Of a stretch of 64,000 bases of DNA, positions 22,249-46,600 are shown in pieces. Location of the stretch: contig NZ_JAHKPY010000014.1 of assembly GCF_018860745.1 (NCBI RefSeq), forward strand, positions 372,001-436,000, written 5' to 3'. Position 1 is the stretch's first letter; every line of letters begins with the position of its first letter. The notes under the pieces were generated by a model. It did not search any database. It was not told the DNA's origin and saw nothing but the letters and a program-made list of their open reading frames with translations. The position numbers and the translations under genes are program-made. The DNA is from Zobellia uliginosa. GTDB taxonomy: Bacteria; Bacteroidota; Bacteroidia; Flavobacteriales; Flavobacteriaceae.

Positions 22249-22817
22249 TTTACCAAGCCTTTGGTGAACTCGTTTAGTGTCTCTACTTTTTCTTCAAAAT
22301 CTCCTTTAATGGTTTTTCTGAATTCATTGAGGTTTTTTACAAGGTCATCTATATTTTCAGGAATAACATCTTCAAAAAACTGACGTAAACGTTTAGCGGT
22401 TGTTGGTGATTTTCCGTTTGTGGAAATAGCCACTTTTACATTTCCCTTGGTAACGATTCCGCCCATGTAAAAATCACAAAAAGGGGGGTTGTCCGCTACG
22501 TTTACCAAGATGCTCTGCGCCCTGCAATCATGGTATACTTGTTCGTTTACCGGTACTTTATCTGTCGTGGCAACAACCATATGCTTTCCTGAGAGAAATG
22601 AAGGGTCATAATTACCTAGGTGCATTTTAATCCCAAATTCATTGGCCAATGCAATAGTTTCCTCCCTGAACATAGGAGATACCATTTCTACCTGTGCATT
22701 AGGGCTTGATTTTAGTAGAAAAGTCAATTTTTCTAAGGCCACGTTTCCACCACCCACAATTAAAATATTTAGATTCGATACTTTAAGAAATACCGGGTAC
22801 AGTTCATTCCGTTCCAT
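22230..22817 (-). CDS. Precorrin-2 dehydrogenase / siroheme ferrochelatase (CysG N-terminal type)
   Basis: A 195-aa protein matching the CysG-N/Met8 domain. It has an NAD-binding 'NILIVGGGNVALEKLTFLL' and the segment 'ILVNVADNPPFCDFYMGGIVTKGNVKVAISTNGKSPTTAKRLRQ', where family catalytic residues lie. It oxidises precorrin-2 to sirohydrochlorin and may insert iron, making siroheme for NirB. It is last in the nitrite operon and its start overlaps the kinase gene by 14 bases. The SUMT partner is the divergent cobA. Confidence 0.9.
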   Translation of the reverse strand: MERNELYPVFLKVSNLNILIVGGGNVALEKLTFLLKSSPNAQVEMVSPMFREETIALANEFGIKMHLGNYDPSFLSGKHMVVATTDKVPVNEQVYHDCRAQSILVNVADNPPFCDFYMGGIVTKGNVKVAISTNGKSPTTAKRLRQFFEDVIPENIDDLVKNLNEFRKTIKGDFEEKVETLNEFTKGLVNKKNEN

Positions 22818-24657
22818 GCTCTTCTTCTTGTTTTTCTGTTTTATAATTAATGGTAACCCGTGTTCCTTCCCCTAGAATGGAGTTTATGAATAACCGTCCA
22901 TTTATATAATCTATTCGCTCTTTCATAAAGAAGAGCCCCATACCGCCTTCGCTATTATTTTTAGGAACTTTCCCTAAAATAGAATCGTCAAAACCCTTAC
23001 CATCATCATCAATAACAATACTTAGGATATCATTTTTATAATTAATGGTGACCAATATATAACTGGCTTCGGCATATTTAATGGCGTTGTTTACCGCTTC
23101 TTGTACAACTCTGTAAACATTGGTTTCGGCTAACGAATCAAACCTAATATGCTCGTCTGTCTTATTGTCGAAAAGAATTGTTTTACCTGTCAATTTTGAA
23201 AGCTCGGCAGTCATTTTTTGAAGCGCCGGAAAAATACCATGGTCACTAAGTTCAGGTGGGGTCAAATTAAAAGTAGCCGTACGTACACCCTTGATTAAAT
23301 CCGATGTTAACGATTTTAGATACGCTATTTTTTCTTTCGTTTTTTCTTGGTTCTCGGGATCAATAGACTCAATATTGAATTTTAACGCAGTCAACATTTG
23401 GCCAATACCATCGTGAATATCTTTGGCAATACGTTTGCGCTCTTCTTCTTGACCTTCTACAATTTGGCTGGCTTGGACTTTTTTCTGAAGCATACGAGCC
23501 TCAAAATTCTGTTGCGTAAGTTGCTCAACCTTTATGCTGTTCTCCTTCCGTTCCGTAATGTCCGAACACAGAATTAGAATACTCTGCTGCCTACTGGATT
23601 GATGCATAGGCACTATGGACATATCCAGATAGAAATCTTTTCCTTCTACGGTGGTAATTTTAATTTCCTCCGTACGGATTACGTTTTTTCTATTACTTTT
23701 TAGGACTTCTCTAAGGTATTCTTGTTGGCCGGAGTCCGATGTTAAAATTTCTGCCAAGGGTTTATTTAGCTGATTTTCAGTAATACCTAACAAGTCGAGA
23801 AATTTTTTACTTATAAAAACAACGCTACCGTCTTTTCTGGCACTTGCGAATAGGGCAGCATTGTCTATTACAAAATTCAACTCTTGTAATTCTTGTAGGG
23901 ATTTTTCTTTTTCCGAATACAGTTGTTGTACTTCCTGCGCACGGGCATCTGAATTTTCTTGATTCTGCATCAGCTCCCCAATGGTCTTCCTTATTTGTAA
24001 AGAAAGAGGCTTGAAGATGAACACAATCTCTAGTAGCAATATAAGGAGGGAAATACCAAGAAGTACGTATTCTTTTTGTTTTAGATTCTTAAGTTTCGAT
24101 TTGCTGCGCTCATCATATAGATTTACGATATCGTCCATCAGATGTAGAAACCGATCTTCATTTTTCAAAACCACAGCAACATGTTGATCTAGATTTTTTT
24201 CGGAAAGACCGTTGTTATGATAGGAAAAAATTATGAATTCAGCTGCTTTTACCATAGCAGAATGATGAGGCTCAAGTTTGTGAAATAGGTTTAGGATTTC
24301 GCTATCATCTTCTTTGGGAAGTCCCTTGGCTATATCTCCATTTTGCAGTGCTTTATGGGAGTGTTTCCATATTTCAATGGTCTTTGAGAGCGCTTCTACC
24401 TTTGTCTCAATTTCACCATTGGGAAACTCACTTTTAATGAGTAACAATTCTTTGGTCAATTTTTGGCTATAAGCTCTTTGAAAACCCGCAACATTAATTA
24501 CTCGGGAATCACTTAATTGGGAGTCAAGGTGATATTGAATTAAAATTTGGGAAACAATAATGGTTACGGCAATACCCGCTAACGCCCACAGGTACCACTT
24601 TCTGATGCTAAGGAAAGTTTCGGAATCAAGTGGTAATTGGGTTTTGTCTTTTGGCAT
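22804..24657 (-). CDS. NarX-like sensor histidine kinase with PAS domain
   Basis: A membrane kinase of 617 aa. Helix 1 (~22-42) is followed by a periplasmic helical domain opening with SRVINVAGFQRAYSQKLTKE (52-70), which resembles the P-box of NarX/PilJ-type nitrate/nitrite sensors. Helix 2 lies around 197-218. A PAS domain with PAC segment follows ('NAALFASARKDGSVVFISKKFLDLLGI', ~275-385), then HisKA_3 with the phospho-His in KRIAKDIHDGIGQML (near 414), and the ATPase motifs EAVNNAIKYA, DDDGKGFD and GGMGLFFMKERI. No response regulator is adjacent. The NarL-type regulator at 41480 is the obvious partner. Confidence 0.88.
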   Translation of the reverse strand: MPKDKTQLPLDSETFLSIRKWYLWALAGIAVTIIVSQILIQYHLDSQLSDSRVINVAGFQRAYSQKLTKELLLIKSEFPNGEIETKVEALSKTIEIWKHSHKALQNGDIAKGLPKEDDSEILNLFHKLEPHHSAMVKAAEFIIFSYHNNGLSEKNLDQHVAVVLKNEDRFLHLMDDIVNLYDERSKSKLKNLKQKEYVLLGISLLILLLEIVFIFKPLSLQIRKTIGELMQNQENSDARAQEVQQLYSEKEKSLQELQELNFVIDNAALFASARKDGSVVFISKKFLDLLGITENQLNKPLAEILTSDSGQQEYLREVLKSNRKNVIRTEEIKITTVEGKDFYLDMSIVPMHQSSRQQSILILCSDITERKENSIKVEQLTQQNFEARMLQKKVQASQIVEGQEEERKRIAKDIHDGIGQMLTALKFNIESIDPENQEKTKEKIAYLKSLTSDLIKGVRTATFNLTPPELSDHGIFPALQKMTAELSKLTGKTILFDNKTDEHIRFDSLAETNVYRVVQEAVNNAIKYAEASYILVTINYKNDILSIVIDDDGKGFDDSILGKVPKNNSEGGMGLFFMKERIDYINGRLFINSILGEGTRVTINYKTEKQEEEHGTE

Positions 24658-24686: not shown

Positions 24687-25277
24687 TTAACCTGCTAAAG
24701 CCTTAGAGACCAAATCAAGTGAATTTTTAGAAAGGGGTAATTTTAATGCAGCCTCATGTCCCGCTTCGGACATTTTACGCCAAGTTTTTTGAAGTATATC
24801 AATAACCTTGGCCTCTTCATGGTCGGAAGCAAAAGGCTCAAAATAATGCTCTAAAAACACCAAACAGATTACATCTTCCAGTGTCTGGGTGTCTTCGTTT
24901 TTCTTTAATTGTTTTTTCTCAAGCAAGAAAGCCACCTTATCAATGGTTTCTTTTTCATAACCAACTTCCTCTAAAATGGAAGCGGCTTTCTCTGCATGGA
25001 ACTTTTTTAGATCTTGACGCCATTTTAGGTATCCTGCACGATTCATTTCGTATGAATTCCTTGGAATTTCCCAACGGCAGATATGTTGACATCTAGCGGT
25101 TAATTGCAGAGCTTCAGATGCATTAGGTGCAAAATCATTCAGTTTTTCTGTCATTCTAGAAGCATAGAGCAGCTCTTTAGGATATGCCTTTCCGTTAAGG
25201 TTTTCTGTATTAGGGTCTTGCTCGTTCGCTTTGTCAAATTGTTGAAAGGCCAATGCTAGTTTATCGGGAGTTGCCAT
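24687..25277 (-). CDS. DUF4202 family protein
   Basis: A soluble alpha-helical protein of 196 aa that I recognise as DUF4202. It has 'LLYASRMTEKL', 'ALQLTARCQHICRWEIPRNSYEMNRAGYLKWRQDLKKFHAE', and a C-terminal 'CLVFLEHYF'. The conserved His, Cys and Trp around 68-100 could bind a metal or cofactor, and the helical His/Asp pattern recalls HD-like proteins. No activity is known to me. It sits between nirD and the kinase in the nitrite operon (100 and 29 base gaps), which points to a role in nitrite reduction. Confidence 0.8.
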   Translation of the reverse strand: MATPDKLALAFQQFDKANEQDPNTENLNGKAYPKELLYASRMTEKLNDFAPNASEALQLTARCQHICRWEIPRNSYEMNRAGYLKWRQDLKKFHAEKAASILEEVGYEKETIDKVAFLLEKKQLKKNEDTQTLEDVICLVFLEHYFEPFASDHEEAKVIDILQKTWRKMSEAGHEAALKLPLSKNSLDLVSKALAG

Positions 25278-28337: not shown

Positions 28338-28345
28338 CAATATTA
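28338..28345 (-). promoter_or_regulatory. Candidate -7 box of the nirB operon
   Basis: TAATATTG (one mismatch to TAnnTTTG) on the minus strand, sharing its first two bases with the end of the operator at 28344. It leaves 24 bases to ATG 28313. Confidence 0.4.
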
Positions 28346-28359
28346 CGTATAAATACGTA
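28344..28359. promoter_or_regulatory. Nitrate-regulon operator between nirB and cobA
   Basis: A perfect palindrome, TACGTAT-AA-ATACGTA. It lies 47 bases before the cobA -7 box and overlaps the putative nirB -7 box, so one site can serve both divergent operons. The 7-2-7 geometry equals that of NarL/NarP sites (known heptamer TACYYMT). Read as ACGTA-N4-TACGT it also fits Crp/Fnr geometry. Confidence 0.7.
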
Positions 28360-29423: not shown

Positions 29424-29457
29424 TACGTAGTAATACGTATATTAATACGTAGTTTTG
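29424..29457 (+). promoter_or_regulatory. Operator and -7 box of the nitrate/nitrite carrier gene
   Basis: Three TACGTA cores. 29424-29439 forms the 7-2-7 site TACGTAG-TA-ATACGTA, and 29446-29451 is a third half-site joined to the exact -7 box TAGTTTTG (29450-29457). A weaker CACGTAG copy lies at 29394. The operator cores start 26 and 16 bases before the -7 box, the position where -33 contacts would be, which suits activation. Confidence 0.7.
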
Positions 29458-31849: not shown

Positions 31850-31885
31850 TAAGTACTAATACTTACTTTTTGTCTAAGTACTAAT
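31850..31885 (+). promoter_or_regulatory. Leader repeats TAAGTACTAAT in the globin operon
   Basis: A near-perfect 7-2-7 palindrome, TAAGTAC-TA-ATACTTA (31850-31865), and a second copy of its left half plus spacer, TAAGTACTAAT (31875-31885), 25 bases on. Both lie downstream of the -7 box, where binding would block transcription. The same sequence occurs before the ABC importer (35667). Confidence 0.5.
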
Positions 31886-31903: not shown

Positions 31904-32317
31904 ATGGAACAAACTACTATTGACCTTGTACAAGAATCATTTGAAAAAGTAAAACCTATTTCCAATGCTGCCGGAAAAATCTTCTACGATAAACTTTTTG
32001 ATTTAGACCCTTCCTTAAGAGCGATATTTCCAAAAGGGGAAGACGCGATTGCCGCACAAGGAAACAAACTTATGAGCATGCTTTCCAGTGCAGTTGCCGG
32101 ATTGAACAATTTAGAGATGTTGGTACCTGTTTTGGAAAATCTAGGAAAAAGACATATAGAATACAAAGTAGAACCTTCACATTATGAGACGGTGGGCACG
32201 GCATTATTGGGGACTCTTGAAGCAGGTCTTGGCGATGATTTTACATCTGAAGTAAAGGAAGCATGGGTATCAGTATATGGAACTATGTCTACGGTAATGA
32301 TAAATGCGTCCTACTAA
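31904..32317 (+). CDS. Bacterial hemoglobin (globin family)
   Basis: A single-domain globin of 137 aa resembling Vitreoscilla hemoglobin and the flavohemoglobin head. The proximal His lies in LGKRHIEYKVEPSHY (F helix), and 'YDKLFDLDPSLRAIFP' is the family A/B-C-D region with the CD Phe. No reductase domain is fused. In the same operon a separate flavin/2Fe-2S reductase is encoded, so NO dioxygenation (NO to nitrate) or NO/O2 binding is a likely role next to nitrate and nitrite reduction. Confidence 0.9.
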   Translation: MEQTTIDLVQESFEKVKPISNAAGKIFYDKLFDLDPSLRAIFPKGEDAIAAQGNKLMSMLSSAVAGLNNLEMLVPVLENLGKRHIEYKVEPSHYETVGTALLGTLEAGLGDDFTSEVKEAWVSVYGTMSTVMINASY

Positions 32318-32340
32318 CTAATCTTTTAAACCACCTTATT

Positions 32341-33171
32341 ATGAAAAAACCAGAATCCTCACCATTTCTTGTATTGATAATTCTTATTGTAAGTTTTGTT
32401 TTATTGAATTCCTGTGGAGGCGTTCCTGAAGAAAATAGTACGAGTGCTACTTCTGAAGGGAATGTTTTTTCCGTTGATGAAGTTTTAGAAATGGTATCAA
32501 AAGAAAATGATGTAACCAGAACATTATACACTAAGGCTATAGTAGGAAAAGGAAAACTACAGGGTATGAAGTTTGACGAAGATTGGCGTAAAGACGATGT
32601 TGAGGCCGGTCCGCTGCCCGCTCTATTTCTTCGCGGCGTTGCTACCAGTATACGTAAAGGACCTATACCGTTAGGCCTGTATTTAGGGTCGGATTTTCCA
32701 ATTAACAATGCGAACAAATTTGAGGGAGAACAAGAGAAACTATTCGAAGAAATCAAAGAAACTCAAGACCCTAAATTCTTTTATGATGAGTCTCAGGAAT
32801 TACATACAGCAATGTTTGCGGACCTTGCTAGTGCCCAAGCATGCGTTACTTGTCATAATGAACATCCTCAAACCGCTAAAACTGACTGGAAGTTGGGAGA
32901 TGTTATGGGTGCTACTACTTGGCAATACCCCAAGGATTCCTTGTCGTATACCGGTGCGCTTGATGTGCTTAATGCATATGCCAAGGGTACGGTAGATGTT
33001 TATGTAGAATACTTGGATGAAATAGCCGCATTTAAATCTTCGGAAAAACCAATAATTGGAGAAAAATGGCCGGAGGATGGGAATTACCTTCCAACACCGG
33101 AAGTTTTCTTGGATAGCGTTAGAAAACTATCGTCATATGAAACCCTAAAAAGCTTGATTGCAAGTAAATAA
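32341..33171 (+). CDS. DUF3365 (Tll0287-like) heme lipoprotein
   Basis: A 276-aa lipoprotein (lipobox LLNSC, Cys25) with a PAS-like DUF3365 domain ending in one c-type heme motif, CVTCH (about 168-172, 'ASAQACVTCHNEHPQTAKTDWKLGDVMG'). Such domains occur as heme sensors or periplasmic redox proteins. The frame is open upstream to 32263, overlapping the globin; ATG 32341 gives a clean signal peptide. It lies between globin and cytochrome b, and could bind NO/O2 or carry electrons at the membrane surface. Confidence 0.85.
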   Translation: MKKPESSPFLVLIILIVSFVLLNSCGGVPEENSTSATSEGNVFSVDEVLEMVSKENDVTRTLYTKAIVGKGKLQGMKFDEDWRKDDVEAGPLPALFLRGVATSIRKGPIPLGLYLGSDFPINNANKFEGEQEKLFEEIKETQDPKFFYDESQELHTAMFADLASAQACVTCHNEHPQTAKTDWKLGDVMGATTWQYPKDSLSYTGALDVLNAYAKGTVDVYVEYLDEIAAFKSSEKPIIGEKWPEDGNYLPTPEVFLDSVRKLSSYETLKSLIASK

Positions 33172-33187
33172 CCATAAAATTTATTTT

Positions 33188-33667
33188 TTGAAAAACAGAA
33201 ACTTGACATCGTTTGTTGGCTTGTTGTTTTTGATACTGTTCTTCGTACAGTTTTTTTTAAAACTAGAATGGCAGTGGTTAAAAGGACTGCAGCAAGAAGA
33301 AATGTACAAGAGATGGTCTGGGCTATTTTTAGCACTTTTCATAACATTCCAATGGGCGCTAACCTTTAGTAGGGTGATCGTAAAATTTAGAAGGCATTCC
33401 ATGTATATGGCCAGACTACATAAGTGGGCAGGAGCCTTAAGCCCAATCTTTTTTTATATGCACAGTATGGGTATGGGTTATGGATATCTTGCTTTGTTGT
33501 CTTATATTTTTTTGGCAAATGCGCTTTTAGGATACATCAATTTAGATGTCATAAAAAACAATAATGAGTTGCTCTTTAAGGCGTGGATGATAGTGCACGT
33601 AGCCTTTTCTCTCATTATTACTATTCTGATGTTTTTCCATATTACCATGGTCTTCTACTACAAATAA
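33188..33667 (+). CDS. NOX/ferric-reductase-like membrane cytochrome b
   Basis: About five membrane helices and two helices each with a pair of histidines spaced H-X13-H (LHKWAGALSPIFFYMHSMG and VHVAFSLIITILMFFHIT). This is the bis-heme ligand spacing of the ferric reductase/NADPH oxidase superfamily, which moves electrons across the membrane through two stacked hemes. No dehydrogenase domain is fused; the next gene supplies it 6 bases later. The frame is open to ATG 33158, inside the previous gene, but TTG 33188 gives a normal start (MKNRNLTSFVGLL). Confidence 0.75.
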   Translation: MKNRNLTSFVGLLFLILFFVQFFLKLEWQWLKGLQQEEMYKRWSGLFLALFITFQWALTFSRVIVKFRRHSMYMARLHKWAGALSPIFFYMHSMGMGYGYLALLSYIFLANALLGYINLDVIKNNNELLFKAWMIVHVAFSLIITILMFFHITMVFYYK

Positions 33668-33673
33668 AAAAGC

Positions 33674-34702
33674 ATGAAACTAACAGTAAAAAATATCATA
33701 AAGGAAACTGAAGATGTCATAAGCGTTGGTTTTATCAACGGTGGCTTTTTCAGCAAGGTAAAGTACAAACCAGGGCAGTTTATTACCCTGCACTTTCCCA
33801 TTGCGGATAAAATTCACAAAAGGGCGTATTCTTTTAGCAGTAATCCTTATACAGACAAAGATTTAAAAATTACCATCAAACGCGTAGAAAACGGATTGGT
33901 TTCAAATTACGTTCATGATTATTTAAAAGTGGGCGACAAGTTGCTAATTGATAAGCCTAACGGAAGTTTTTTTATAAAACCGGAAAAAGAACAGCAGAAA
34001 AGTTATGTTTTTTTTGCAGCGGGAAGCGGGATTACGCCCATTTTTTCAATCATCAATTCGGTTTTACAAAAAGAGACCAAATCCAGTATTGTATTGGTTT
34101 ATGCCAGCCGTTTTTTTGAGGGTATAATCTTTCATAAAGAACTCGTTGAACTTCAAAAGCAATATGGAGACAGGTTTAAGATAGAATATCTTATTTCCAA
34201 AAATGCACCTACAAAACCCAACTATCATAAAGGACTGATAACTGATGCTTTGGTTGTGGAGACCCTTGATAAATATGAGCTGCCCTTTGAAAATTGTGAA
34301 TACATGATTTGTGGGCCTTTTGGGTTTATGGAAGCGGTAAAAAGTATCTTGAACGTAAATGGTGTTTCTCCTTTGAGAATAAAGGAAGAACTTTTTAAAA
34401 GACCGGACACCGTTATACAGAGCGATGGTATGACAAGCAAGGTAAAAATACAATTAAACGGAACTAGCCATGAGTTGAACATTGCCAATAACAAGTCTAT
34501 TCTACAAGCTGCTATGGCTCAAAATATAGATATGCCCTATTCCTGTAGGTCTGGTATGTGCTCTACATGTATAGCTTCCTGTGTATCCGGAACAGTCAAT
34601 ATGACCGACGGTCATTTTTTGGGGCAGAAAGAAGTTGATGCCGGTAAAATTCTGACCTGTGTAAGCTATCCTGCAAGCGAAAATGTCGTAATCTCAATAT
34701 AA
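33674..34702 (+). CDS. FAD/NAD(P)H reductase with C-terminal 2Fe-2S ferredoxin domain
   Basis: A 342-aa protein of the phenol-hydroxylase/HCP-reductase type. A flavin domain (KPGQFITLHFP; KRAYSFSSNP) is followed by a NAD(P) domain (FFAAGSGITPIFSIINSVL; YMICGPFGFMEAV) and a plant-type 2Fe-2S domain (CRSGMCSTCIASCVSG...ILTCVSYP). It would take electrons from NAD(P)H and pass them to the cytochrome b before it, and perhaps to the globin. It lies 6 bases after cytochrome b and 2 bases before the multiheme cytochrome gene. Confidence 0.9.
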   Translation: MKLTVKNIIKETEDVISVGFINGGFFSKVKYKPGQFITLHFPIADKIHKRAYSFSSNPYTDKDLKITIKRVENGLVSNYVHDYLKVGDKLLIDKPNGSFFIKPEKEQQKSYVFFAAGSGITPIFSIINSVLQKETKSSIVLVYASRFFEGIIFHKELVELQKQYGDRFKIEYLISKNAPTKPNYHKGLITDALVVETLDKYELPFENCEYMICGPFGFMEAVKSILNVNGVSPLRIKEELFKRPDTVIQSDGMTSKVKIQLNGTSHELNIANNKSILQAAMAQNIDMPYSCRSGMCSTCIASCVSGTVNMTDGHFLGQKEVDAGKILTCVSYPASENVVISI

Positions 34703-34704
34703 AT

Positions 34705-35421
34705 ATGGGCATATTTAAAGTATCACCTTTACGAAAGAGACAATTTTGGGGAGGTCTTTCAGGCCTCGCTTTAGGGGTAGGAGTCATTTTGTTTTTATCT
34801 CTAAAAACATCAGAAGAATATGTTTCCTTGGGCCCGATGAATAATGGTCATAATGAGATATCATGTGCCGCTTGTCATACAGATGCTAATGGCAATTTAT
34901 CTCAGCAAATACAATCCAATATGGCGCATGCCTTTGGAATGAGAGAAAACGGAGTGGATTTTGGCACCAAAGACGTAACGGTAAAAAATTGTTTAGAATG
35001 CCATGACCGTCCAAATGACCGCCATCCTACGTATAGATTTTCTGAACCTAGATTCAGAAAGGTAATAAAGAAAATTGATGCCACTACTTGTATTACCTGT
35101 CATACGGAACACAATGGGGAGCGTGTTAGTGTTGCTGCAATTAATTACTGTATGAATTGCCACCAGGATTTAGAAGTGGAGAATGACCCTGTAAATATAT
35201 CCCATGTAAAACTAATAGCCAACGAACAATGGTTCACTTGTATTCAATGTCATGATTTTCATGGTAACCATAGGTATAATGTGCCCACTAAACTTCAGGA
35301 TACAATACCACTAAAAATCATACAGAATTATCTTGATGGTGGCGAAGATCCGTATGGAAAGGACAAAAAATACTTAGGGCTGTCAGAACCTGAATGGATT
35401 AAAACACTTCAAAAGAAATAA
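34705..35421 (+). CDS. Membrane-anchored pentaheme cytochrome c
   Basis: An N-terminal membrane anchor (about 12-32) and five CXXCH motifs (CAACH, CLECH, CITCH, CMNCH, CIQCH) in a 238-aa periplasmic protein, of the cytochrome c3/NapC-NrfH-like group. Several extra His residues may be distal ligands. It is last in the redox operon and likely accepts electrons from the cytochrome b or delivers them to a periplasmic acceptor. The terminal acceptor is not encoded here. Confidence 0.88.
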   Translation: MGIFKVSPLRKRQFWGGLSGLALGVGVILFLSLKTSEEYVSLGPMNNGHNEISCAACHTDANGNLSQQIQSNMAHAFGMRENGVDFGTKDVTVKNCLECHDRPNDRHPTYRFSEPRFRKVIKKIDATTCITCHTEHNGERVSVAAINYCMNCHQDLEVENDPVNISHVKLIANEQWFTCIQCHDFHGNHRYNVPTKLQDTIPLKIIQNYLDGGEDPYGKDKKYLGLSEPEWIKTLQKK

Positions 35422-35645: not shown

Positions 35646-35682
35646 ACGTATACATTTGTCAAAAGTAAGTACTAATACGTAG
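35646..35682 (+). promoter_or_regulatory. Promoter and operators of the ABC nitrate importer operon
   Basis: TACGTAT (35646-35652) overlaps an exact -7 box, TACATTTG (35652-35659). A 7-2-7 site, TAAGTAC-TA-ATACGTA, covers the leader at 35667-35682, 20 bases before the ATG. One site at -7 and one after the start point suggest mixed control. Confidence 0.6.
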
Positions 35683-35702: not shown

Positions 35703-37085
35703 ATGAAAACCATTTTTACAAAAGCATCATTATTTGCAACTATGGCTGCAATAGTTATGGCTTGCGGAGGAAAAGAAGCAAAAAAGACCGAAGCTACTGC
35801 AGAAGAAGCCGTTGCATCAAAAACACAGATGTTAGATATTGAAAAGCCGCAATTAACGTTCGGTTTTATAAAATTAACAGATATGGCTCCTTTGGCCATT
35901 GCCAAAGAAAAAGGATTTTTTGAAGATGAAGGGTTGTTTGTTTCCGTAGAAGCACAATCAAATTGGAAAAACGTTTTGGATCGCGTTATTGATGGTCAGT
36001 TAGACGGTTCTCATATGCTGGCAGGTCAGCCAATTGCTGCAGGTGCCGGTTTTGGAAGACAAGCCAAATTGGTAACTCCATTTTCCATGGATTTAAATGG
36101 AAACGGTATTACTGTTTCCAACGATGTTTGGTCTAAAATGAAACCAAATGTACCTGCTGATTCCGAAGGAAAGCCAATACATCCAATTAAGGCAGATGCC
36201 TTGAAACCGGTAATCACAGATTATAAGAACAGCGGTAAACCGTTTAAAATGGGAATGGTATTTCCTGTTTCCACACACAACTATGAAATACGATATTGGT
36301 TAGCTGCCGCTGGTATTCACCCAGGTATGTATACTGCAGATAACGTGCAAGGGCAAATTGATGCTGAAGTTTTACTATCTGTTACACCTCCGCCACAAAT
36401 GCCAGCTACTTTGGAATCAGGCACTATATACGGCTACTGCGTAGGTGAACCTTGGAATCAACAAGCCGTATTTAAAGGAATTGGTGTGCCGGTTACTACG
36501 AATTATGATATCTGGAAAAACAATCCTGAAAAAGTATTCGTAATGACGGAGAAGTTCGTGGCCGATAATCCAAACACGGCAATAGCTGTTACCAAAGCTT
36601 TGATTCGCGCCGGAAAATGGTTAGATGAGCCTTCTAATAGAGCTGAGGCAGTAAAAATATTGTCTATGTCTCAATATGTTGGTGCGCCCGAAGAAGTATT
36701 GGCAAACTCAATGACCGGTACGTTCGAATTTGAAAAAGGTGATAAGCGTGAGATGCCTGATTTTAACGTATTCTACAAGTACAACGCTACATATCCGTTT
36801 TACTCGGATGGTATTTGGTTTCTTACTCAAATGCGTAGATGGGGTCAAATTCCTGAAACTAAATCTGCTGAATGGTACGGTGAAACGATTAAGGATATCT
36901 ATCGTCCTGATATTTGGAAAAAAGCAGCGGACTTACTGGTTGCAGAGGGTCAAATTCCAGCAGCAGACATCCCTGAAACAGATGGATATAAACCAGTAAC
37001 CACAGACTTCATAGACGGTACATCATACGATGCAAAAGACCCAATAGGGTATATCAATAGTTTCTCCATAGGAAACAAGGATTAA
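35703..37085 (+). CDS. nrtA: Nitrate ABC transporter substrate-binding lipoprotein (NrtA/CmpA family)
   Basis: A 460-aa lipoprotein (lipobox VMAC, Cys21) of the NrtA/CmpA/SsuA-like fold. It has '[68 protein letters not shown]', '[25 protein letters not shown]' and '[25 protein letters not shown]'. This matches nitrate/bicarbonate-binding proteins. In the middle of nitrate genes, nitrate or nitrite is the probable ligand. It is the first gene of the importer operon. Confidence 0.92.
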
Positions 37086-37118
37086 GTATAGAGAAAATCG
37101 AAGCAAAATTACAGTATC

Positions 37119-38219
37119 ATGGAACAAGATATCACATTAAAGAAAGAGGGACAAGGGCTTGCATTTTTAAAGCCCTTAGTAACTAAGCTTACTCCTAAAT
37201 TTCAGAAAGGAGACATATTGTCGTCATTAAAAAAAGCCGGAATTACTATAGTTTCCATTCTATTGTTTTTGGGATTATGGCAGCTTGGTTCAAAAGCACT
37301 ATATAACAAGGAAGCAGATTATAAAATTGAAAAAGCACTTACGGAACGCGGCCAAGAGGCTGCGGATGCTGAACGCGCTTGTATTGAATCTGGAGATAGT
37401 AGTTGCCAACCAAATACGCTTCCTTCTCCTGCGCAAGTGTGGGGGTCTTTGCAATCATTGATTGCGGATCATAAAGTTATAACGGCAGACAAAGCAGCTT
37501 TTGTTGAAAAGATGGCAAAAACCAATGCCAAGCTTACAGCCCAAGGTAAAAACGCTATTGTTTATACCGGTAGAGCATCTTTCGTGGATATTGTTCTTAC
37601 CAGTATTAAAACCGTTTTCGCCGGATTTCTTTTGGCACTTTTAATTGCGGTACCTATTGGAATAATAATAGGCTTGAGTCCGTCATTACGAAGTGCCTTC
37701 AACTGGTTTATTCAAATATTTAAACCGGTATCTCCCGTGGTATGGTACTTGTTGGTTTTTATGATTGTAAAAACACTGTATATCGGAGACAGTTCTGATA
37801 ATGCTTTTGTAATCTCTTTTATCAGTGTTGGTCTGTGTGCCATGTGGGCAACTTTGGTTAATACGGCAATGGGAGTTGCTTCTGTAGATAAGGATTATAT
37901 AAACGTAGCTAAAGTTCTAAAATTGGGAACCTTTCAAAAGGTTTTTAAAGTGATATTACCTTCCTCTTTACCGCTTATATTCACGGGATTACGAATTACG
38001 CTATCCGTTGCTTGGATGGTACTAATTGCCATAGAACTTTTGGCGCAGAGTCAAGGCTTGGGCTTATTTGTATGGGAAGAGTTCCAAAACGGAGCAAACG
38101 ATTCAAATGCGAAGATTATAGTAGCGATGTTCGTTATTGGGATTATCGGATTCCTTTTGGATAGAATAATGTTGTCCGTACAGAATTTGGTTTCCTTCAA
38201 TAAAAATGAAATGGCCTAA
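37119..38219 (+). CDS. nrtB: Nitrate ABC transporter permease
   Basis: A 366-aa BPD-type permease. An N-terminal helix (about 42-60) is followed by a ~100-residue charged insert and then the five-helix permease core ('FAGFLLALLIAVPIGIIIGLSPSLRSAFNWFIQIFKPVSPVVWYLLVF') and the EAA-loop region 'NVAKVLKLGTFQKVFKVILPSSLPLIFTGLRI'. The family is NrtB/CmpB. The insert is on the periplasmic side by topology and is typical of long NrtB forms. Confidence 0.92.
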   Translation: MEQDITLKKEGQGLAFLKPLVTKLTPKFQKGDILSSLKKAGITIVSILLFLGLWQLGSKALYNKEADYKIEKALTERGQEAADAERACIESGDSSCQPNTLPSPAQVWGSLQSLIADHKVITADKAAFVEKMAKTNAKLTAQGKNAIVYTGRASFVDIVLTSIKTVFAGFLLALLIAVPIGIIIGLSPSLRSAFNWFIQIFKPVSPVVWYLLVFMIVKTLYIGDSSDNAFVISFISVGLCAMWATLVNTAMGVASVDKDYINVAKVLKLGTFQKVFKVILPSSLPLIFTGLRITLSVAWMVLIAIELLAQSQGLGLFVWEEFQNGANDSNAKIIVAMFVIGIIGFLLDRIMLSVQNLVSFNKNEMA

Positions 38220-38243
38220 GGCCTAACCCTTAAAACGAACTAA

Positions 38244-39083
38244 ATGGCATATTTAGAACTAAATAATGTATACAAGAGTTACGGTACTGGCGAGAACGTC
38301 ACGAACGTTTTATCCAACATCAATTTAAACATTGAAGAAGGAGAATTCGTTGCTATTGTTGGCTTCACCGGAAGTGGAAAAACTACTTTAGTAAATCTAA
38401 TAAACGGATTGTTGAAACCAACTAGTGGAGAGGTTCTGTTTAAAGGTTTGCCTGTTGTGGATACCAGTCATGAGCGTGGGGTTATCTTTCAAAACTACTC
38501 TTTGCTACCATGGTTAACCGTTGGCCAGAATGTTTATATGGCAGTAAAAGAAGCTTTTCCAAAAGAGAGTAAAGCAGTATTAAAAAAGCGGGTAGCAGAT
38601 TACGTAGAAATGGTTAGCCTTAGCCCTGCAATAAACAAAAGACCCAAAGAATTATCCGGTGGTATGCGCCAAAGAGTAGCTGTGGCAAGGGCTTTAGCAA
38701 TGAATCCTGAGATGATCATTATGGATGAGCCTTTAGGTGCATTGGATGCTTTGACCCGTGGAAATCTGCAGGACGAAATATTGAACATTTGGAGCAAGGA
38801 TAAACGTACGGCACTATTAATTACGAACGATGTGGATGAAGGCATTTACATGGCAGATAGAATTATTCCTTTAAAACCGGGACCGAATGCCACATTGGGG
38901 CCGGAGTTTAAGATAGACATTGAACGGCCTCGTGACAAAACTGCAATGAACGATAATCCAAGTTTTAAAAAAACGAGAAATGCGATTATTGAATATCTAA
39001 TGGATATAGGGGACCAACGGAAGTCGGTTTCCGAGGTAGAGTACGTTCTTCCAGAAATAGCACCAAAAAGTTTTGTAGCCTAA
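38244..39083 (+). CDS. Nitrate ABC transporter ATPase 1 (H-loop His replaced)
   Basis: A 279-aa ABC ATPase of the NrtC/NrtD/CmpD type. Walker A is GFTGSGKTT, the signature is [14 protein letters not shown], and Walker B is [14 protein letters not shown]. The switch His of the H-loop, normally ITHD, reads ITND. The signature is canonical. It probably forms a heterodimer with the next ATPase. No C-terminal regulatory NrtA-like domain is fused, unlike cyanobacterial NrtC. Confidence 0.92.
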
Positions 39084-39093
39084 ATTGAATGAT

Positions 39094-39921
39094 ATGACAG
39101 AGCTAAAAGAAAATAAACAAATGGGAACCACTCAGAACGGTATTTTATACCCTTCTCCGGTCATGTTGGATTTAAACGATCTTAAAAAAGTGTATCCTAC
39201 GCCAAAAGGGGATTATGTTGTTCTTGAGCATCTGAACCTTCAGATAATGAAAGAAGAATTCGTGACTATTATTGGTCATTCGGGCTGCGGTAAAACAACC
39301 ATGCTTTCCATGATTGCAGGTTTGAATCCAATATCAGGAGGTAATATCTCAGTTTTAGGCAATCCCGTTAAAGGACCGGGACCAGATCGGGGTGTAATAT
39401 TCCAATCACCAAGTTTAATGCCATGGATGACGGCCTTACAAAATGTACTTTTGGGTGTAAATAAAGTTTTTGCGCATGCAACTAAGGCTCAGAGACAGGA
39501 TATAGCCAAATACTATTTACATAAAGTAGGTTTAGACGGTGCTTTTCACAAAAAAGCCTCTGAACTTTCTCAAGGAATGCAGCAAAGGGTAGGTATTGCC
39601 AGAGCCTTTGCTATTAAACCTAAAGTATTATTGTTAGATGAGCCGTTTGGCATGCTAGATTCACTTACACGGGGAGAGTTACAGGATATTCTTATTGAGA
39701 TTTGGAATAAAGAAAAAATAACTGCGGTGATGATAACACATGATGTAGACGAGGCTATTTTCTTGGCCGATCGTGTGGTTATGATGACCAGCGGTCCTAG
39801 GGCAAAAATAGGAGATGTTTTAAACATTGATTTTGAAAGGCCCCGTACGCGTAAATCTGTTTTAGAGCATGATGATTACTATACGTACAGAAAACACTTA
39901 ATTGACTTTTTAGAACATTAA
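39094..39921 (+). CDS. Nitrate ABC transporter ATPase 2
   Basis: A second ABC ATPase of about 275 aa, with Walker [11 protein letters not shown], signature [14 protein letters not shown] (second position G to Q), Walker [15 protein letters not shown], and intact H-loop ITHD. The frame opens at TTG 39085, but ATG 39094 is preferred. Its signature is degenerate where its partner's H-loop is, so one of the two composite ATP sites is predicted weak and the other normal. Confidence 0.92.
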
Positions 39922-39956: not shown

Positions 39957-41261
39957 ATGAAAAGACAGTACACATTAATAATCCTACTAGTCCTATCAAT
40001 TCAGTTCGCTACTGCGCAATTTTCTCTGGATGGAGAGTTTAAACCTCGTACTGAATACCGAAACGGTTTTGGTAGTATAATACCTGATGATGCAGATGCT
40101 GGTTTTGCAATTGCTACCCGCTTACGATTAAATGCAGGTTACCAAACAGAAGCATTTAAATTTTATATGAGTCTACAAGACGTAATGGTCTGGGGAGAAA
40201 ACAGACAACTAAAACCTGAGGATAGTAATAATTCGTTTTCCGTCTTTCAAGCTTGGGCGGATATTAAATTAAGCGAAGGTTTTTCTACAAAAATTGGTCG
40301 CCAAATGTTAGTTTATGATGACCAAAGAATTCTTGGTGGAGTAGACTGGGCTATGCAGGCACGTAATCATGATGCTGCGTTGTTGAAATATAACAAAGGA
40401 AAGTTCATGATGGATTTAGGCCTGGCGTTTAATCAAGATTTTTCTGGAACAACGGGAAATCCAGGTGGTTTTCAATCTGTAGGGACCGCTTATAACACTA
40501 CTGGGTTCTTTTCGTATAAAAGCATGCAATATTTATATTTAAAACATAAGGGAGAGGCTTTTTCTGTAAGTGGTTTAATTTTGAATAATGGTTTCCAAAA
40601 CTTTACAGGAGATGCAGATGCTCTGGTTGCAGATGGTGTTAGTAATTTAATAACCGTTGGTACACATCTGAACTATAAAAAAGGAAGTTTCGCAGCGGCA
40701 TTTAACGGGTATTTACAAACTGGGGAACGCCAGAACAGTGTAGATGTAAGTGGTGCATATCTTCTAGGGTTGGACCTGAGTTACAAAGTATCAAAAGGAG
40801 TTTCGTTAGGACTTGGAGCAGAGATTATTAGTGGAAATGATGCAAGTACTACGGATAAAACGGAGGCTTTCTTTCCACTATACGGAACCAATCATAAATT
40901 CAATGGGTTTATGGATTACTTCTACGTAGGAAATCATGCCAACTCAATAGGGCTTACGGATATTCATGCTAGCGCCAAATTTGCATTAGGTGAAACCTCT
41001 AGCTTATTGGTGAAAGTTTTGAATTTTAGTGGAGAACAGGAATTGGGAAGTGGTGAAAAATCACTTGGTACTGAAGTTGACTTGGTTTTTGCTAAGAATT
41101 TCAAGGGTTACGGATTGGCCATAGGGTATTCCCAAATGTTTGCTAGTGATGGTATGTACGAATTAAAGGGGATAACTGAGGATGCCGCCGGTAGTGTCCA
41201 AAACTGGGCATGGGTACAATTAACCATGAAACCTAAGTTTTTAAATACGGCAAAAGAATAG
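39957..41261 (+). CDS. Alginate_exp-family outer membrane porin
   Basis: A signal peptide (1-20, ...QFATAQ) is followed by a 400-residue beta-barrel of the alginate-export/OprD-like porin family ('FSLDGEFKPRTEYRNGFG', 'FQAWADIKLSEGFSTKIGRQMLVYDDQRILGGVDWAMQARNHDAALLKY'). Its position 35 bases after the importer ATPase, before the operon terminator, suggests an outer-membrane nitrate/nitrite channel, not alginate export; no alginate genes are nearby. Confidence 0.85.
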   Translation: MKRQYTLIILLVLSIQFATAQFSLDGEFKPRTEYRNGFGSIIPDDADAGFAIATRLRLNAGYQTEAFKFYMSLQDVMVWGENRQLKPEDSNNSFSVFQAWADIKLSEGFSTKIGRQMLVYDDQRILGGVDWAMQARNHDAALLKYNKGKFMMDLGLAFNQDFSGTTGNPGGFQSVGTAYNTTGFFSYKSMQYLYLKHKGEAFSVSGLILNNGFQNFTGDADALVADGVSNLITVGTHLNYKKGSFAAAFNGYLQTGERQNSVDVSGAYLLGLDLSYKVSKGVSLGLGAEIISGNDASTTDKTEAFFPLYGTNHKFNGFMDYFYVGNHANSIGLTDIHASAKFALGETSSLLVKVLNFSGEQELGSGEKSLGTEVDLVFAKNFKGYGLAIGYSQMFASDGMYELKGITEDAAGSVQNWAWVQLTMKPKFLNTAKE

Positions 41262-41479: not shown

Positions 41480-42154
41480 TTGAACCAAACAACAAGTATC
41501 ATTTTAGCAGACGACCATTCTTTGGTCCGCGACGGAATTAGGGCTTTATTAGAAAGTGAATCTGATTTGAAAGTCATTGGAGAAGCTTCAGACGGTATGG
41601 AGGCAATTGAAATGGTGAATAGAAATTCGCCGGATTTATTGATAATCGATATTAGGATGCCTAAAATGACGGGCATAGAAGCGGTTGAAAAACTTAGCGC
41701 TCAAAACTCACCTGTAAAATGCATTATCCTTTCTATGCATGATTCGGAAGAGTATATTTTACAATCGGTAAAAGCGGGTGCCAGGGGATACTTATTAAAA
41801 GACACAGGAAAAGTTGAGTTTATTAAGGCTATTCATTCCGTTCGAGAAGGTGGTAAGTATTATAGTGGAGACATTTCTAATGTTTTGGTAAATAATCTCT
41901 TGGGTTCTGGTGGAGGTACATCTATTGAAACACCAAAAAAAGCGGATTCTACTAGCAATCAATTTGATTTGACGAACAAAGAACTCCAAGTGCTAGAATT
42001 GGTCTTATCAGGTTTAACCAATAAGCAAATTTCAGAAAAACTACAGAATAGTAAGCGTACGGTAGAAACACATAGATTTAACCTTATGCGTAAAATGGAG
42101 GTTAAGAATTTAATAGACCTTTCAAAAAAAGCACAACAATTTAATTTGGTGTAG
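41480..42154 (+). CDS. NarL/FixJ-family response regulator
   Basis: A receiver domain (1-125; acidic pair ADDHS, phospho-Asp in LLIIDIRMPK near residue 56, Lys in LLKDTGK) and a LuxR-type HTH (FDLTNKELQVLELVLSGLTNKQISEKLQNSKRTVETHRFNLMRKMEVKN, ~156-205) make up this 224-aa protein. The start is TTG 41480. No kinase is adjacent; the NarX-like kinase in the nirB operon (17 kb away) is the likely partner. A candidate for binding the TACGTA palindromes, one of which covers its own start. Confidence 0.9.
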   Translation: MNQTTSIILADDHSLVRDGIRALLESESDLKVIGEASDGMEAIEMVNRNSPDLLIIDIRMPKMTGIEAVEKLSAQNSPVKCIILSMHDSEEYILQSVKAGARGYLLKDTGKVEFIKAIHSVREGGKYYSGDISNVLVNNLLGSGGGTSIETPKKADSTSNQFDLTNKELQVLELVLSGLTNKQISEKLQNSKRTVETHRFNLMRKMEVKNLIDLSKKAQQFNLV

Positions 42155-42210
42155 TGCTAAAGGTTAGTACTTAATTTTCTTCTATTTTGGCTTCAGAGCA
42201 GCTTCTATCC

Positions 42211-43554
42211 ATGGAAAAAGCCATTTTTTATCATATATATCCTTTAGGGCTTTTAGGTGTGGATAAAACCAATGATTTGGTTTCCGCTCCCGTTCACAGA
42301 TTTCCCGAGCTATATGAATGGTTAAAACATATACAGGAACTGGGTTTTAATGCTTTATATATAGGCCCGGTTTTTGAGTCCTCCACACACGGGTATGATA
42401 CGGCAGACTATTATTTAGTAGACCGCCGGTTGGGTGATGATGCAGATTTGATCGCTTTTGTTGGTCAAGCGCATGAATTGGGAATAAGTGTGGTGTTAGA
42501 CGGAGTGTTCAATCATGTAGGAAGGGATTTCTTCGCATTTATAGACCTACGCAGATTTGGAAAGAAATCAAAATACATTGATTGGTTTTGCAATGTAGAT
42601 TTTTCTAAGAAGAGCCCATTAAAAGACCCTTTTATCTATGATACTTGGTCAGGTCACTATCAGCTCGTAAAACTAAACCTAAAGAACAAGGAGGTAAGAG
42701 CTTATCTATTTGGTGCAGTAAAAAAGTGGATTAACACCTATAAAATTGATGGGTTGCGTTTGGATACTGCAGATGTTCTTGATTTTGATTTTATGAGAGA
42801 GCTTTCGCTTTTCTGTAAGAAGGAGAATCCTGGTTTTTGGATTATGGGAGAAGTTGTACACGGTAATTACAACAAATGGGTAAATGCCACTATGCTGGAT
42901 TCCGTAACGAATTACGATTACCATACCCCAATTTATGAAAGTTTTAATTCAGGTAATTTCTCTAAAATTGCTAAAACTGCAACGCAAAATTTTGGCCCGA
43001 AGGGGCGTTACAAAAATCTTGAACTCTATTCGTTTGTAGATAATCATGATGTAAACAGAGCCGCCAGTACACTTAAAAAACCAGAACACCTTTTTCCTTT
43101 ATATCTTCTATTATTTACTCTTCCTGGAATACCTGCTATATATTATGGTAGTGAATGGGGTTTTGAAGGAAAGAAAACGGCACATAGCGATGATTTATTA
43201 CGGCCAAAAGTAAACCTAAAAAATCTAGGCAAGCTGGCAAAGCACCCAAAACTGTTAGATGCAATAAAACAGTTTATTTGCGTCCGAGATAATTGTAAGA
43301 CCCTATTATATGGGGCCTATGACACATTGGTAGTTAACAAAGAACAATATGTATTCACAAGGAAAAGTACGTATAAAACGGTTATTGTTATTGTAAATTC
43401 TTCAAGTAAAGTGGCAGTGATAAATATTCCGCTTAAAGGCTTTTTACTACAAAATTTCTCGGACCTCTTAAATACCGAATATTGCCAAAAAGCCAATGAA
43501 AATGGGCTCTTAGTGGAAGTTTCGCCATGTTGGGGTCGTATTTTAGTTCATTGA
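42211..43554 (+). CDS. Cytoplasmic GH13 alpha-amylase-family enzyme
   Basis: A 447-aa glycoside hydrolase family 13 enzyme without signal peptide. The conserved regions are DGVFNHVG (region I), GLRLDTADV (nucleophile Asp near 184), MGEVVHG (acid/base Glu near 213) and FVDNHDVNR (third Asp near 279), followed by a C-terminal beta-sandwich. It would cut internal alpha-glucans such as glycogen. It lies 56 bases after the response regulator in the same direction and has no TACGTA site of its own, so it may be co-transcribed with the nitrate regulator. That context is unusual. Confidence 0.88.
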   Translation: MEKAIFYHIYPLGLLGVDKTNDLVSAPVHRFPELYEWLKHIQELGFNALYIGPVFESSTHGYDTADYYLVDRRLGDDADLIAFVGQAHELGISVVLDGVFNHVGRDFFAFIDLRRFGKKSKYIDWFCNVDFSKKSPLKDPFIYDTWSGHYQLVKLNLKNKEVRAYLFGAVKKWINTYKIDGLRLDTADVLDFDFMRELSLFCKKENPGFWIMGEVVHGNYNKWVNATMLDSVTNYDYHTPIYESFNSGNFSKIAKTATQNFGPKGRYKNLELYSFVDNHDVNRAASTLKKPEHLFPLYLLLFTLPGIPAIYYGSEWGFEGKKTAHSDDLLRPKVNLKNLGKLAKHPKLLDAIKQFICVRDNCKTLLYGAYDTLVVNKEQYVFTRKSTYKTVIVIVNSSSKVAVINIPLKGFLLQNFSDLLNTEYCQKANENGLLVEVSPCWGRILVH

Positions 43555-43626: not shown

Positions 43627-43670
43627 TACGTATATATACGTAATTTTTTAACTTGCTGTATCTAATTTTG
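43627..43670 (+). promoter_or_regulatory. Operator and -7 box of the nitrate reductase operon
   Basis: A perfect palindrome, TACGTAT-AT-ATACGTA (43627-43642), and an exact -7 box, TAATTTTG (43663-43670). Its half-sites lie 36 and 26 bases before the -7 box, one helical turn further than at the carrier gene. Confidence 0.7.
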
Positions 43671-43695: not shown

Positions 43696-46600
43696 ATGTT
43701 GAAAAAGAAAACACATAAGACCGTTTGTTCCTATTGCGGCGTAGGTTGCGGTATATTGGTAGATGTAGATAATAAAGGTAAGATAGAGGTAGACGGTGAT
43801 CCGGAATACCCTTCCAATAAGGGCATGCTTTGCTCTAAGGGAAGAAATCTTAACTATGTGGCGCAAGACACTACTGACCGTATTCTGCACCCAGAAATGC
43901 GGTGGAGTAGAAACCATCCATTGGAAAAAGTTACATGGGATGCTGCTTTTGATCGTGCTGCAGCTGTATTCAAAAGTATTATTGCCAAACACGGGCCAGA
44001 TAGTGTAGGGTTCTACGTATCGGGGCAATGTCTTACGGAGGAGTATTATTTGGTAAATAAAATTACCAAAGGATTTATAGGTACAAACAATGTAGATACT
44101 AATAGTCGTCTTTGTATGAGTTCTGCAGTAGTGGGTTACAAAAAAACACTAGGTGAAGATTCTGTACCCATTTCATATGAGGATATTGAGCTGGCAGATT
44201 GTTTTTTGATTGCCGGAGCTAACCCTGCGTGGTGTCATCCTATTCTCTACAGACGCTTAGAGCAACACAAAGAAAATAATCCCAACGTAAAAATTATAGT
44301 AGTAGATCCAAGAAAAACCCAGACTTGCGCTTCAGCGGATTTACACTTACAGATACTTCCGGGAACAGACGTAATTCTTTTTAATGCTATAGCAAGATAT
44401 CTTATTGAAAAGAAAAAAATAGATAAGAACTTTATTAAAAAGCATACCTCAAATTTTGATGCCTGCAAGGAGAGTGCTTTTACACTTTCCTTACGCCAAG
44501 CAGCCGAAAAATGTGGTGTTCCCGTTGCAGATATCCGTAAAGCTGCTCAATATATAGGTGACGCCAATAAGTTCATAAGTATGTGGACTATGGGTCTTAA
44601 CCAAAGTGTAATTGGTGTTTCTAAAAATGTTTCCCTTTTAAACCTTTCTTTGTTAACAGGTCAAATAGGTAAGCCTGGATGTGGGCCGTTTTCATTAACA
44701 GGCCAACCCAATGCCATGGGCGGTCGTGAAGTGGGAGGTATGGCAAGTCTTTTGGCGGCACATAAAGATTTAGGTAATCCCAAGCATAGAAAAGAAGTTT
44801 CCGATTTTTGGGGAGGGAAAGAAATAAATTCAGAACCGGGCTACACGGCAACAGAAATGTTCGATGCTCTGGAAAGTGGAAAATTAAAGGCAATTTGGAT
44901 TATTTGTACGAACCCTGCGGTTAGTATGCCAAATGTGAAAAAGGTAGAAAAAGCACTAAAGAACGCCGCTTTTGTTGTGGTTCAAGATATCAGTCATAAT
45001 TCCGAAACTACCAAATTTGCAGATTTGTTACTTCCTGCTGCAGGATGGTTAGAGAAAGATGGTACTATGACGAACTCAGAAAGAAGAATAAGTTATTTGC
45101 CCAAAGTTATTGATGCTCCTGGGGACGCTTTGCCAGATGTGGAAATTCTATGGCGTTTTGCTCAGGCCATGGGCTATGAGGGTTTTGATTATAAAAATGC
45201 AAGTGAGGTGTATGATGAACATTGTCTGCTTACAAAAGGAACCAATATAGATGTTACAGGGTTATCTCATGAACGCCTTAAAAAAGAAGGAAGTTTTCAA
45301 TGGCCGGTTCCTCATAAAACACATCCGGGCACTCCGCGTCTGTTCACAGATCTCAACTTTCATACGAATGATAAAAAAGCCCATTTTAATGCACCAAAAA
45401 GCATTTATAACAAATCGGAAGAAACAGATATTGATTTTCCGCTTATACTGAATACAGGAAGGGTAAGAGATCAATGGCATACCCGAACCAAAACAGGTAA
45501 AGTGAAACGTTTGCTTACCCATATCCCTCAACCGTATTTAGAAATGAATAAAGTAGATGCCTATCTACGAAAACTAAAGGAAGGGGATATTGCTGTGATT
45601 AAAAGCAGAAGGGGAGAGGTACAAGTAAAGGTGAAAATCAATTTTGATATACGTGAGCGCGTGGTTTTCCTTCCAATGCACTGGGGAAAAATATTGAATA
45701 ACGATTTCGGAAGGGCCAATAACCTCACTAGTGATTTGGTTGACCCAATCTCCAAAGAACCAGATTTTAAGTATTGTGCCGTACAGGTTGAAAAGTTTGT
45801 AAAACCAGCCCAAAAAATAGTGGTTATTGGAGCCGGTGCCGCTGCGTATCGCTTTATCCAATCCTATAGGGAAAAGAATAAAAAAGATCAGTTACATGTC
45901 TTTTCAAAAGAGAGAGACCCTTTCTATAATCGTGTTTTGTTACCTGAATATGTAAGTGATGAACTTTCCTGGGAAGCCTTGGAGAAACTCAAAAACGGGG
46001 AACTTAAGAAATTGAATGTCACCCTGCATTCCGGAATAGGAATTACGGAGATTAACTCTTCAATGAAGCAGGTAACGGATAGTTCAGGATTGATACACTC
46101 GTATGATTTGCTTATTATGGCTACCGGTAGTAGGGCATTTGTCCCGAGCGAAGTTCAGATCAATCTTCCTGGACGGTTTACTATGCGTGAACGCGGAGAT
46201 GCGGATAAACTTAAAAAATACCTTCAGGAAACAGGACTTCCTGCCACGGAACAACATGTGGTAATTGTAGGTGGTGGCCTCTTAGGTTTAGAATTAGCGG
46301 CCGCTCTTAAGAACATAAATATCAACATTAGTATCGTACAGCGGGCACCGCGCCTTATGGAACGGCAGTTAGATAGAGTAGCAAGCCGATTGTTGGCGGA
46401 AGACGTTACCGAAAGGAATATCAATCTTTATTTTGACAATGAGGTAAGTACGGTTTTTGAAGAAAAAGAAAACCCGTTTCAGCTTTTAGTGAATTTAAAA
46501 ACGGGTAGAACCATACAATGCAATGCTATTGTATATGCCATAGGAACAAGGCCCAATATAGAACTGGCAAAAAAAGCCAATTTAGTTACCAGACGGGGTG

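Follow-up and report, generated by a model that had tools for sequence, protein, structure and literature searches.

Five adjacent genes occupy positions 31904-35421 of a 64,000-nucleotide stretch of the Zobellia uliginosa genome (the whole stretch is referred to below as the window), and the locus raises the question of what a globin, a heme-Cache (Tll0287/DUF3365) lipoprotein, a cytochrome b, a flavin/iron-sulfur reductase and a pentaheme cytochrome c might do together (Table 1). All five open reading frames (ORFs) are intact and lie on the plus strand, as a previous sequence-only reading of this DNA had described them. The annotated intergenic gaps (23, −14, 6 and 2 bases) have the shape of a single transcript, and the genes apparently form one transcription unit. 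We tentatively propose, with somewhat less than even confidence, that they encode a nitrogen-oxide-linked redox module in which one reductase serves two outlets, providing defence against nitric oxide (NO) and nitrite in both compartments. That the products form a transmembrane electron chain, taken by itself, is probable.

No other observation supports the electron path as strongly as a natural gene fusion does. In one genome of the family Flavobacteriaceae (G229, locus L050), an ORF of 571 residues joins FAD, NAD and 2Fe-2S domains to a hydrophobic anchor and a pentaheme cytochrome; it is followed by heme-Cache and cytochrome b genes, with no globin gene nearby. This fusion places the reductase at the inner face of the membrane and ties it to a periplasmic cytochrome, which leaves cytochrome b as the encoded bridge between them. 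It also bears out the previous assignment of the reductase to the cytochrome b/c chain, and the absence of the globin from L050 marks that protein as a separable, facultative partner.

In the path that we envisage, a hydride from NAD(P)H would pass through the FAD and the 2Fe-2S centre of the soluble reductase to the inner heme of cytochrome b. Electrons would cross the membrane over the two hemes of this protein and reach the periplasmic side, where the anchored pentaheme cytochrome c and the heme-Cache lipoprotein would take them up. The pentaheme protein would serve as a wire and the heme-Cache protein as a ligand-binding site, and this periplasmic end would most likely clear NO or nitrite arising during the use of nitrate and nitrite. 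The cytoplasmic globin would be re-reduced by the same or another reductase and, when O2 is present, would convert NO to nitrate. The gene set, its order, the invariant cofactor residues, the fusion of reductase and pentaheme cytochrome and the common promoter palindrome are observed directly, and from them we infer the direction of flow, the heme content, NO as the substrate and the acting regulator.

The arrangement of the genes is strongly conserved. A search with the cytochrome b in 299 genomes of the family gave a match in 27, one of them the window's own genome. In 22 of 22 other strong loci the genes run unchanged from globin through heme-Cache, cytochrome b and reductase to pentaheme cytochrome; their flanks vary, and consist of nas/nir genes, a NapA-like cluster, nrfHA with ccsBA, or molybdenum-cofactor genes. 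The four weaker matches comprise the fused variant L050 and three loci without the module (L051-L053). Among named loci, represented by the best 80 of 203 heme-Cache relatives, 73 hold all five genes in a row and all 80 keep the four non-globin genes together. The globin gene lies nearby on the opposite strand in L119, L120, L123 and L133, the contig of L107 breaks off at the globin, and no globin was recognised in the stretches of L085 and L118. The nearest named relatives are Maribacter (the heme-Cache protein is 88% identical to that of M. zhoushanensis); the family-genome and named-locus sets overlap in part, some loci being the same genome. The five genes also occur in the same order, with 37-56% identity, on plasmid p1 of Flammeovirga kamogawensis, a member of another order of the phylum (Cytophagales). 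The co-conservation predicted by the sequence-only reading was thus found; the globin, which it had counted as a regular member of the set, fits that description at 73 of the 80 loci, and the fused locus shows it to be facultative. Conserved order and fusion together support the proposed electron path with a separable globin.

The sequence-only reading had also placed the operon under nitrate control but offered no evidence, which is now provided by a promoter element common to the operon and its nitrate-related neighbours. The element is a 16-bp palindrome of the pattern TAMGTA-N4-TACKTA, and the genome (4.86 Mb) holds five copies, all within 15.3 kb of one another in the window. The genome-wide total is not over-represented (5, versus 6 for a reversed-pattern control), so the telling part is the clustering alone, whose chance we put at about 5e-10 in a rough calculation made after the sites had been seen. 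When up to three mismatches were allowed, the number of sites in the window was near chance (75 found, 63 expected). Across homologous regions, 11 or 12 of the 12 palindrome positions were present upstream of the globin gene in 59 of 77 cases, as against none of 77 shuffles. The 80 named loci contain 241 sites, where 1.5 would be expected from base composition, and 60 have a palindrome upstream of the globin gene, although close kinship among many of the loci means that they do not count as independent. Elsewhere (eight genomes, represented by 20 hand-picked stretches among the sites listed, with G084, G177 and G002 left out), palindromes precede homologues of nirB, narK, nrtA and narL, which mostly lie at loci apart from one another, and some have no recognised neighbour. 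Nitrate-linked control of the operon is well supported by this pattern.

The likely reader of the palindrome is one of two candidates: (i) the NarX/NarL-like pair of the window, or (ii) the FNR-like protein encoded beside the operon. The palindrome fits the 7-2-7 layout of NarL sites. Residues C20, C23 and C28 of the FNR-like protein are invariant in 65 of 65 sequences, and C122 is present in 57 of 65 (here and below, residue counts refer to all collected sequences after deduplication). Its gene lies just upstream of the globin gene in 57 of the 80 named loci, and the palindrome is still found upstream of the globin gene in 10 of 16 loci where no FNR-like gene was found.

Table 1. Coordinates, within the window, of the five-gene operon, the palindrome copies, the candidate regulators and the nitrate transporter
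Feature	Position	Strand	Basis or remark
Single-domain globin	31904..32317	+	Pfam PF00042, E 9e-20; closest solved relative 3s1i
Tll0287/DUF3365 (heme-Cache) lipoprotein, one CxxCH	32341..33171	+	PF11845
Five-helix bis-heme cytochrome b, H88/H102 + H147/H161	33158..33667	+	motifs, AlphaFold2 model
FAD/NAD(P)H/2Fe-2S reductase	33674..34702	+	Pfam domains; nearest NCBIfam models PaaE, Hcr
Pentaheme cytochrome c, N-terminal membrane anchor	34705..35421	+	five CxxCH
16-bp palindrome TAAGTACTAATACTTA, five-gene operon promoter element	31850..31865		start 54 bp upstream of globin ATG
Palindrome copy in the divergent nirB-cysG promoter	28344..28359		
Palindrome copy upstream of narK	29424..29439		
Palindrome copy upstream of nrtA	35666..35681		
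Palindrome copy upstream of nasC	43627..43642		
FNR-like Crp-family regulator, C20/C23/C28 + C122	30919..31668	+	
NarL-like response regulator, candidate palindrome reader	41480..42154	+	homologues elsewhere have their own upstream copy
NarX/NarQ-like histidine kinase with PilJ domain	22804..24657	-	
nrtABCD nitrate ABC transporter	35703..39921	+	

The cytochrome b, whose translation probably begins at TTG 33188 as judged by alignment with homologues, has a pair of H-X13-H motifs in each of the 92 distinct sequences, and all four histidines are invariant. In the AlphaFold2 model (pLDDT 80) the pairs sit in long helices 3 and 5, and the chain stops after the fifth long helix, one short of the six that characterize NOX and ferric reductase domain (FRD) proteins. 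The window's protein scored 16.9 bits against Ferric_reduct (PF01794), which is below the curated cut-off of 28, and 14 of 15 members matched this model at E values of up to 1 (best 4e-5). Structural comparison of the model with the bacterial NOX protein SpNOX gave Z 7.7 (root mean square deviation, rmsd, 3.6; 114 residues aligned; 21% identity), and unrelated helical bundles scored equally well or higher; the matches also include E. coli superoxide oxidase with Z 9.5 and cytochrome b6f with Z 9.1. Unrelated bundles dominate the fold matches, so the result, although compatible with FRD kinship, proves neither that nor kinship with NOX. A Foldseek search with the model returned nothing at E <= 0.001, and a profile search of the PDB found no match. 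Because of the helix number and the Pfam score, we do not file the protein as either NOX or FRD.

A NOX proper carries its dehydrogenase domain fused at the C-terminus, whereas the reductase is a separate gene at the window locus, as had been noted previously. In view of the five helices, the separate 2Fe-2S reductase and the sub-threshold Pfam score, the earlier label of a NOX-like system stands just as an analogy, and split pairs of this type are already known (see below). That the operon encodes a ferric reductase or a NOX-type system producing superoxide is highly improbable: the weak Ferric_reduct similarity and the presence of SpNOX among the fold matches speak for it, while the regulation in common with nitrate genes and the lack of an iron-uptake gene among the annotated neighbours in the window speak against it, as does the dedicated pentaheme partner, which would make little sense if O2 or Fe(III) were reduced directly. 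Iron reduction, one of the functions suggested in the sequence-only reading, found no support.

The reductase contains FAD_binding_6, NAD_binding_1 and Fer2 domains, with a CX4CX2C motif and a later cysteine that are invariant in 86 of 86 sequences. In NCBIfam it comes closest to PaaE and to Hcr, an NADH oxidoreductase, and scores below the cut-off of each. The pentaheme protein has five CxxCH motifs and six further histidines, all invariant in 85 of 85 sequences, so bis-His ligation is possible for every one of the five c hemes. Its N-terminus, basic and then hydrophobic, is predicted to be a membrane anchor that leaves the hemes outside, and the protein is more likely to be a wire than a catalyst. 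A PDB search with the pentaheme profile returned just partial stretches of NrfH and ACIII-A (E 0.02-0.06).

The periplasmic ligand-binding site is likeliest to be the heme-Cache protein, which scored 32.6 bits against PF11845 (formerly DUF3365; cut-off 24.1) and seems to do without the usual axial cysteine. The residues of its CxxCH motif (C168, C171 and H172) are conserved in 88 of 88 proteins, and in all 88 this pair constitutes the sole cysteines after the lipobox column. The Cys/His ligation seen in Tll0287 and in a Pseudomonas putida member, which is not a family-wide trait, is thus impossible here unless the lipobox cysteine serves. In structural comparisons of the model (mean pLDDT 69), Tll0287 (5b82) was clearly the best match (Z 9.7; rmsd 3.2; 135 residues aligned), the next reaching 7.4; a PDB search with the heme-Cache profile gave chance-level matches alone. 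A member of the family lacking the cysteine shows tight NO binding according to a preprint (PMC12889525).

The globin residues Y28, Q52, H84 and Y94 are invariant in 82 of 82 sequences, and with the help of an alignment to 3s1i we take them to be the TyrB10, GlnE7, HisF8 and TyrG5 of the flavohemoglobin pocket. A globin with this pocket inside nitrate loci points to NO defence. There is a parallel in Bradyrhizobium, where the globin Bjgb and the flavoprotein Flp counter NO arising from nitrate assimilation (PMC4724949; see also PMC6965051 for the role of Bjgb in NO defence). A rival reading is a split flavohemoglobin, in which reductase and globin would act as an NO dioxygenase and the other three genes would encode an unrelated redox sensor. 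The Bradyrhizobium precedent, the globin in the same operon at 73 of 80 loci, and the 127 bits that the FAD/NAD part of the reductase scores against the flavohemoglobin (Hmp) model would all fit. We nevertheless regard this explanation as quite improbable: L050 lacks the globin and has its reductase joined to the pentaheme cytochrome in one chain, and the four non-globin genes stay together throughout the named loci, even in the four where the globin lies on the opposite strand.

Neither is the globin an Hmp in itself, as it reaches 79.9 of the 432 bits required by that model, and globin and FAD/NAD domains are encoded by separate genes instead of forming the single chain of Hmp. We further compared 23 module-bearing genomes (G229 with L050 counted in) with 22 hand-picked genomes without a match; G261, G123 and G016 (L051-L053, without the module) and G271 (L034, 76% complete) were left out. 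A full-length flavohemoglobin scored above the cut-off in one of these 45 genomes, and its presence does not track the module.

The same comparison bears on the main rival explanation, namely that the chain feeds a periplasmic nitrite or nitrate reductase (NrfA or Nap-type) in the manner of NrfB or NapC, the globin just mopping up internal NO. NrfA was found in 15 of the 23 module genomes, including the window's own, and in 3 of the 22 others (Fisher p 0.0007), an association that is no more than suggestive given related genomes and hand-picked controls, and some module loci adjoin nrfHA-ccsBA or a NapA-like cluster. Yet eight of the 23 module genomes have no NrfA, the neighbours in the window are assimilatory nas/nir genes although the genome has NrfA elsewhere, and Nrf and Nap loci already encode their own NrfH-like and NrfD-type quinol partners. 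We consider a donor role of this kind rather unlikely.

Several observations weigh against the nitrogen-oxide defence that we favour: (i) none of the hemes of the pentaheme protein is obviously open, (ii) the NO-forming NirK does not track the module (4 of 23 module genomes, 8 of 22 others), (iii) the palindrome is absent from the L050 and Flammeovirga stretches, and no nitrate gene was recognised near either module, so nitrate linkage is not universal, and (iv) in PMC12889525, stand-alone heme-Cache domains are judged to be of a redox type and not NO sensors, and the P. putida C59A variant, without the cysteine, still bound NO weakly, so that removal of the cysteine gave no tight binding. In G229, nrtA does occur elsewhere on the contig that carries L050 (88% identical). 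A stronger version of the defence hypothesis, in which one reductase would drive both the globin and, through cytochrome b and the pentaheme wire, a heme-Cache protein with an NO- or nitrite-reducing activity of its own, is speculative and on present evidence unlikely; if true, it would make the heme-Cache domain catalytic and the whole a periplasmic NO reductase of a new type, driven by NAD(P)H.

We did not find nrtA on the Flammeovirga replicon, an empty answer from this search being weak, and an operon without nrtA or the palindrome indicates that the cassette stands by itself and is no appendage of nitrate genes. Wider samples yielded nothing outside the family, with matches in 1 of 395 for the phylum (the window's own), 4 of 395 for the order (all of the same family) and 1 of 355 for the class (again its own). 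As the Flammeovirga copy turned up in a search of plasmids, such samples evidently miss rare cases; two other plasmid matches (Leisingera) proved to be chemotaxis proteins.

The Flammeovirga operon is headed by hemA (glutamyl-tRNA reductase; L165, 8048-9310), which ends 8 bases before the globin gene and suggests a dedicated heme supply, and transposase genes lie immediately downstream of the operon (L165). In Aquimarina algiphila (L129, 13128-16456) and at comparable loci of the genus, a gene for a small protein with one CxxCH comes after the operon, together with ResB/CcsA-type cytochrome c maturation genes.

How does the five-gene set relate to known systems? The E. coli MsrQ-Fre pair is a split FRD/FNR system, with a membrane FRD protein and a separate reductase (PMC11031084, PMC5676040). 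Dividing the two functions between separate proteins thus has a precedent, and by analogy the five-gene set may work in a similar way. MsrQ-Fre-MsrP resembles it in combining an FRD-type bis-His membrane heme protein, a separate FNR-family reductase and a periplasmic partner (PMC11031084). The set differs in its five helices, a reductase with its own 2Fe-2S domain, the globin, the single operon, the nitrate-linked regulon, and acceptors that are likely to be the pentaheme cytochrome and the heme-Cache lipoprotein. The Bradyrhizobium narK-bjgb-flp-nasC genes likewise co-express a single-domain globin and a flavoprotein with nitrate assimilation for NO defence, but the available part of that source names no transmembrane cytochrome b, multiheme cytochrome or heme-Cache protein (PMC4724949).

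Tll0287/DUF3365 (sCache_heme) proteins share the PF11845 match, the fold and the one CxxCH with the lipoprotein described here, which differs in having no axial cysteine and in belonging to an electron-transfer operon instead of standing alone or being fused to a signalling output. NOX and SpNOX likewise have H-X13-H pairs in the third and fifth helices and an NAD(P)H-FAD donor, whereas the present system is split and has five helices, a 2Fe-2S domain and a probable heme c acceptor. We found no description of the five-gene combination in the literature searched (open-licence papers), in keeping with the impression of novelty given by the sequence-only reading.

According to PMC11031084, MsrQ is so far alone among prokaryotic FRD-containing proteins in having a physiological function that has been clearly identified. 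If the proposed electron path is correct, the module would represent a further bacterial route for pushing NAD(P)H electrons over the inner membrane, in this case into multiheme cytochromes, and stand-alone heme-Cache proteins would gain a concrete set of partners. It may also explain how nitrate-using marine Flavobacteriia, mostly devoid of full-length flavohemoglobin in our sample, cope with NO.

The window holds several further features. An Alginate_exp-family beta-barrel gene (39957-41261) directly follows nrtABCD, a position kept in relatives, and is a candidate outer-membrane nitrate channel. An ORF of 1176 residues (43696-47226) fuses an assimilatory nitrate reductase with molybdopterin domains to a NirB-like flavin/BFD diaphorase half, and apparently encodes a self-contained NADH nitrate reductase. 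Directly after nasC, a protein of 479 residues (47238-48677) combines a nitrite/sulfite reductase half-domain with a C-terminal rubredoxin, and had no NCBIfam match at E 1e-20. A GH13 alpha-amylase-like gene (42187-43554), out of keeping with this neighbourhood, lies between the NarL-like regulator and nasC. Finally, a DUF4202 gene (24687-25277) adjoins the genes for the NarX-like kinase and nirB, and occupies the same place in other genomes.

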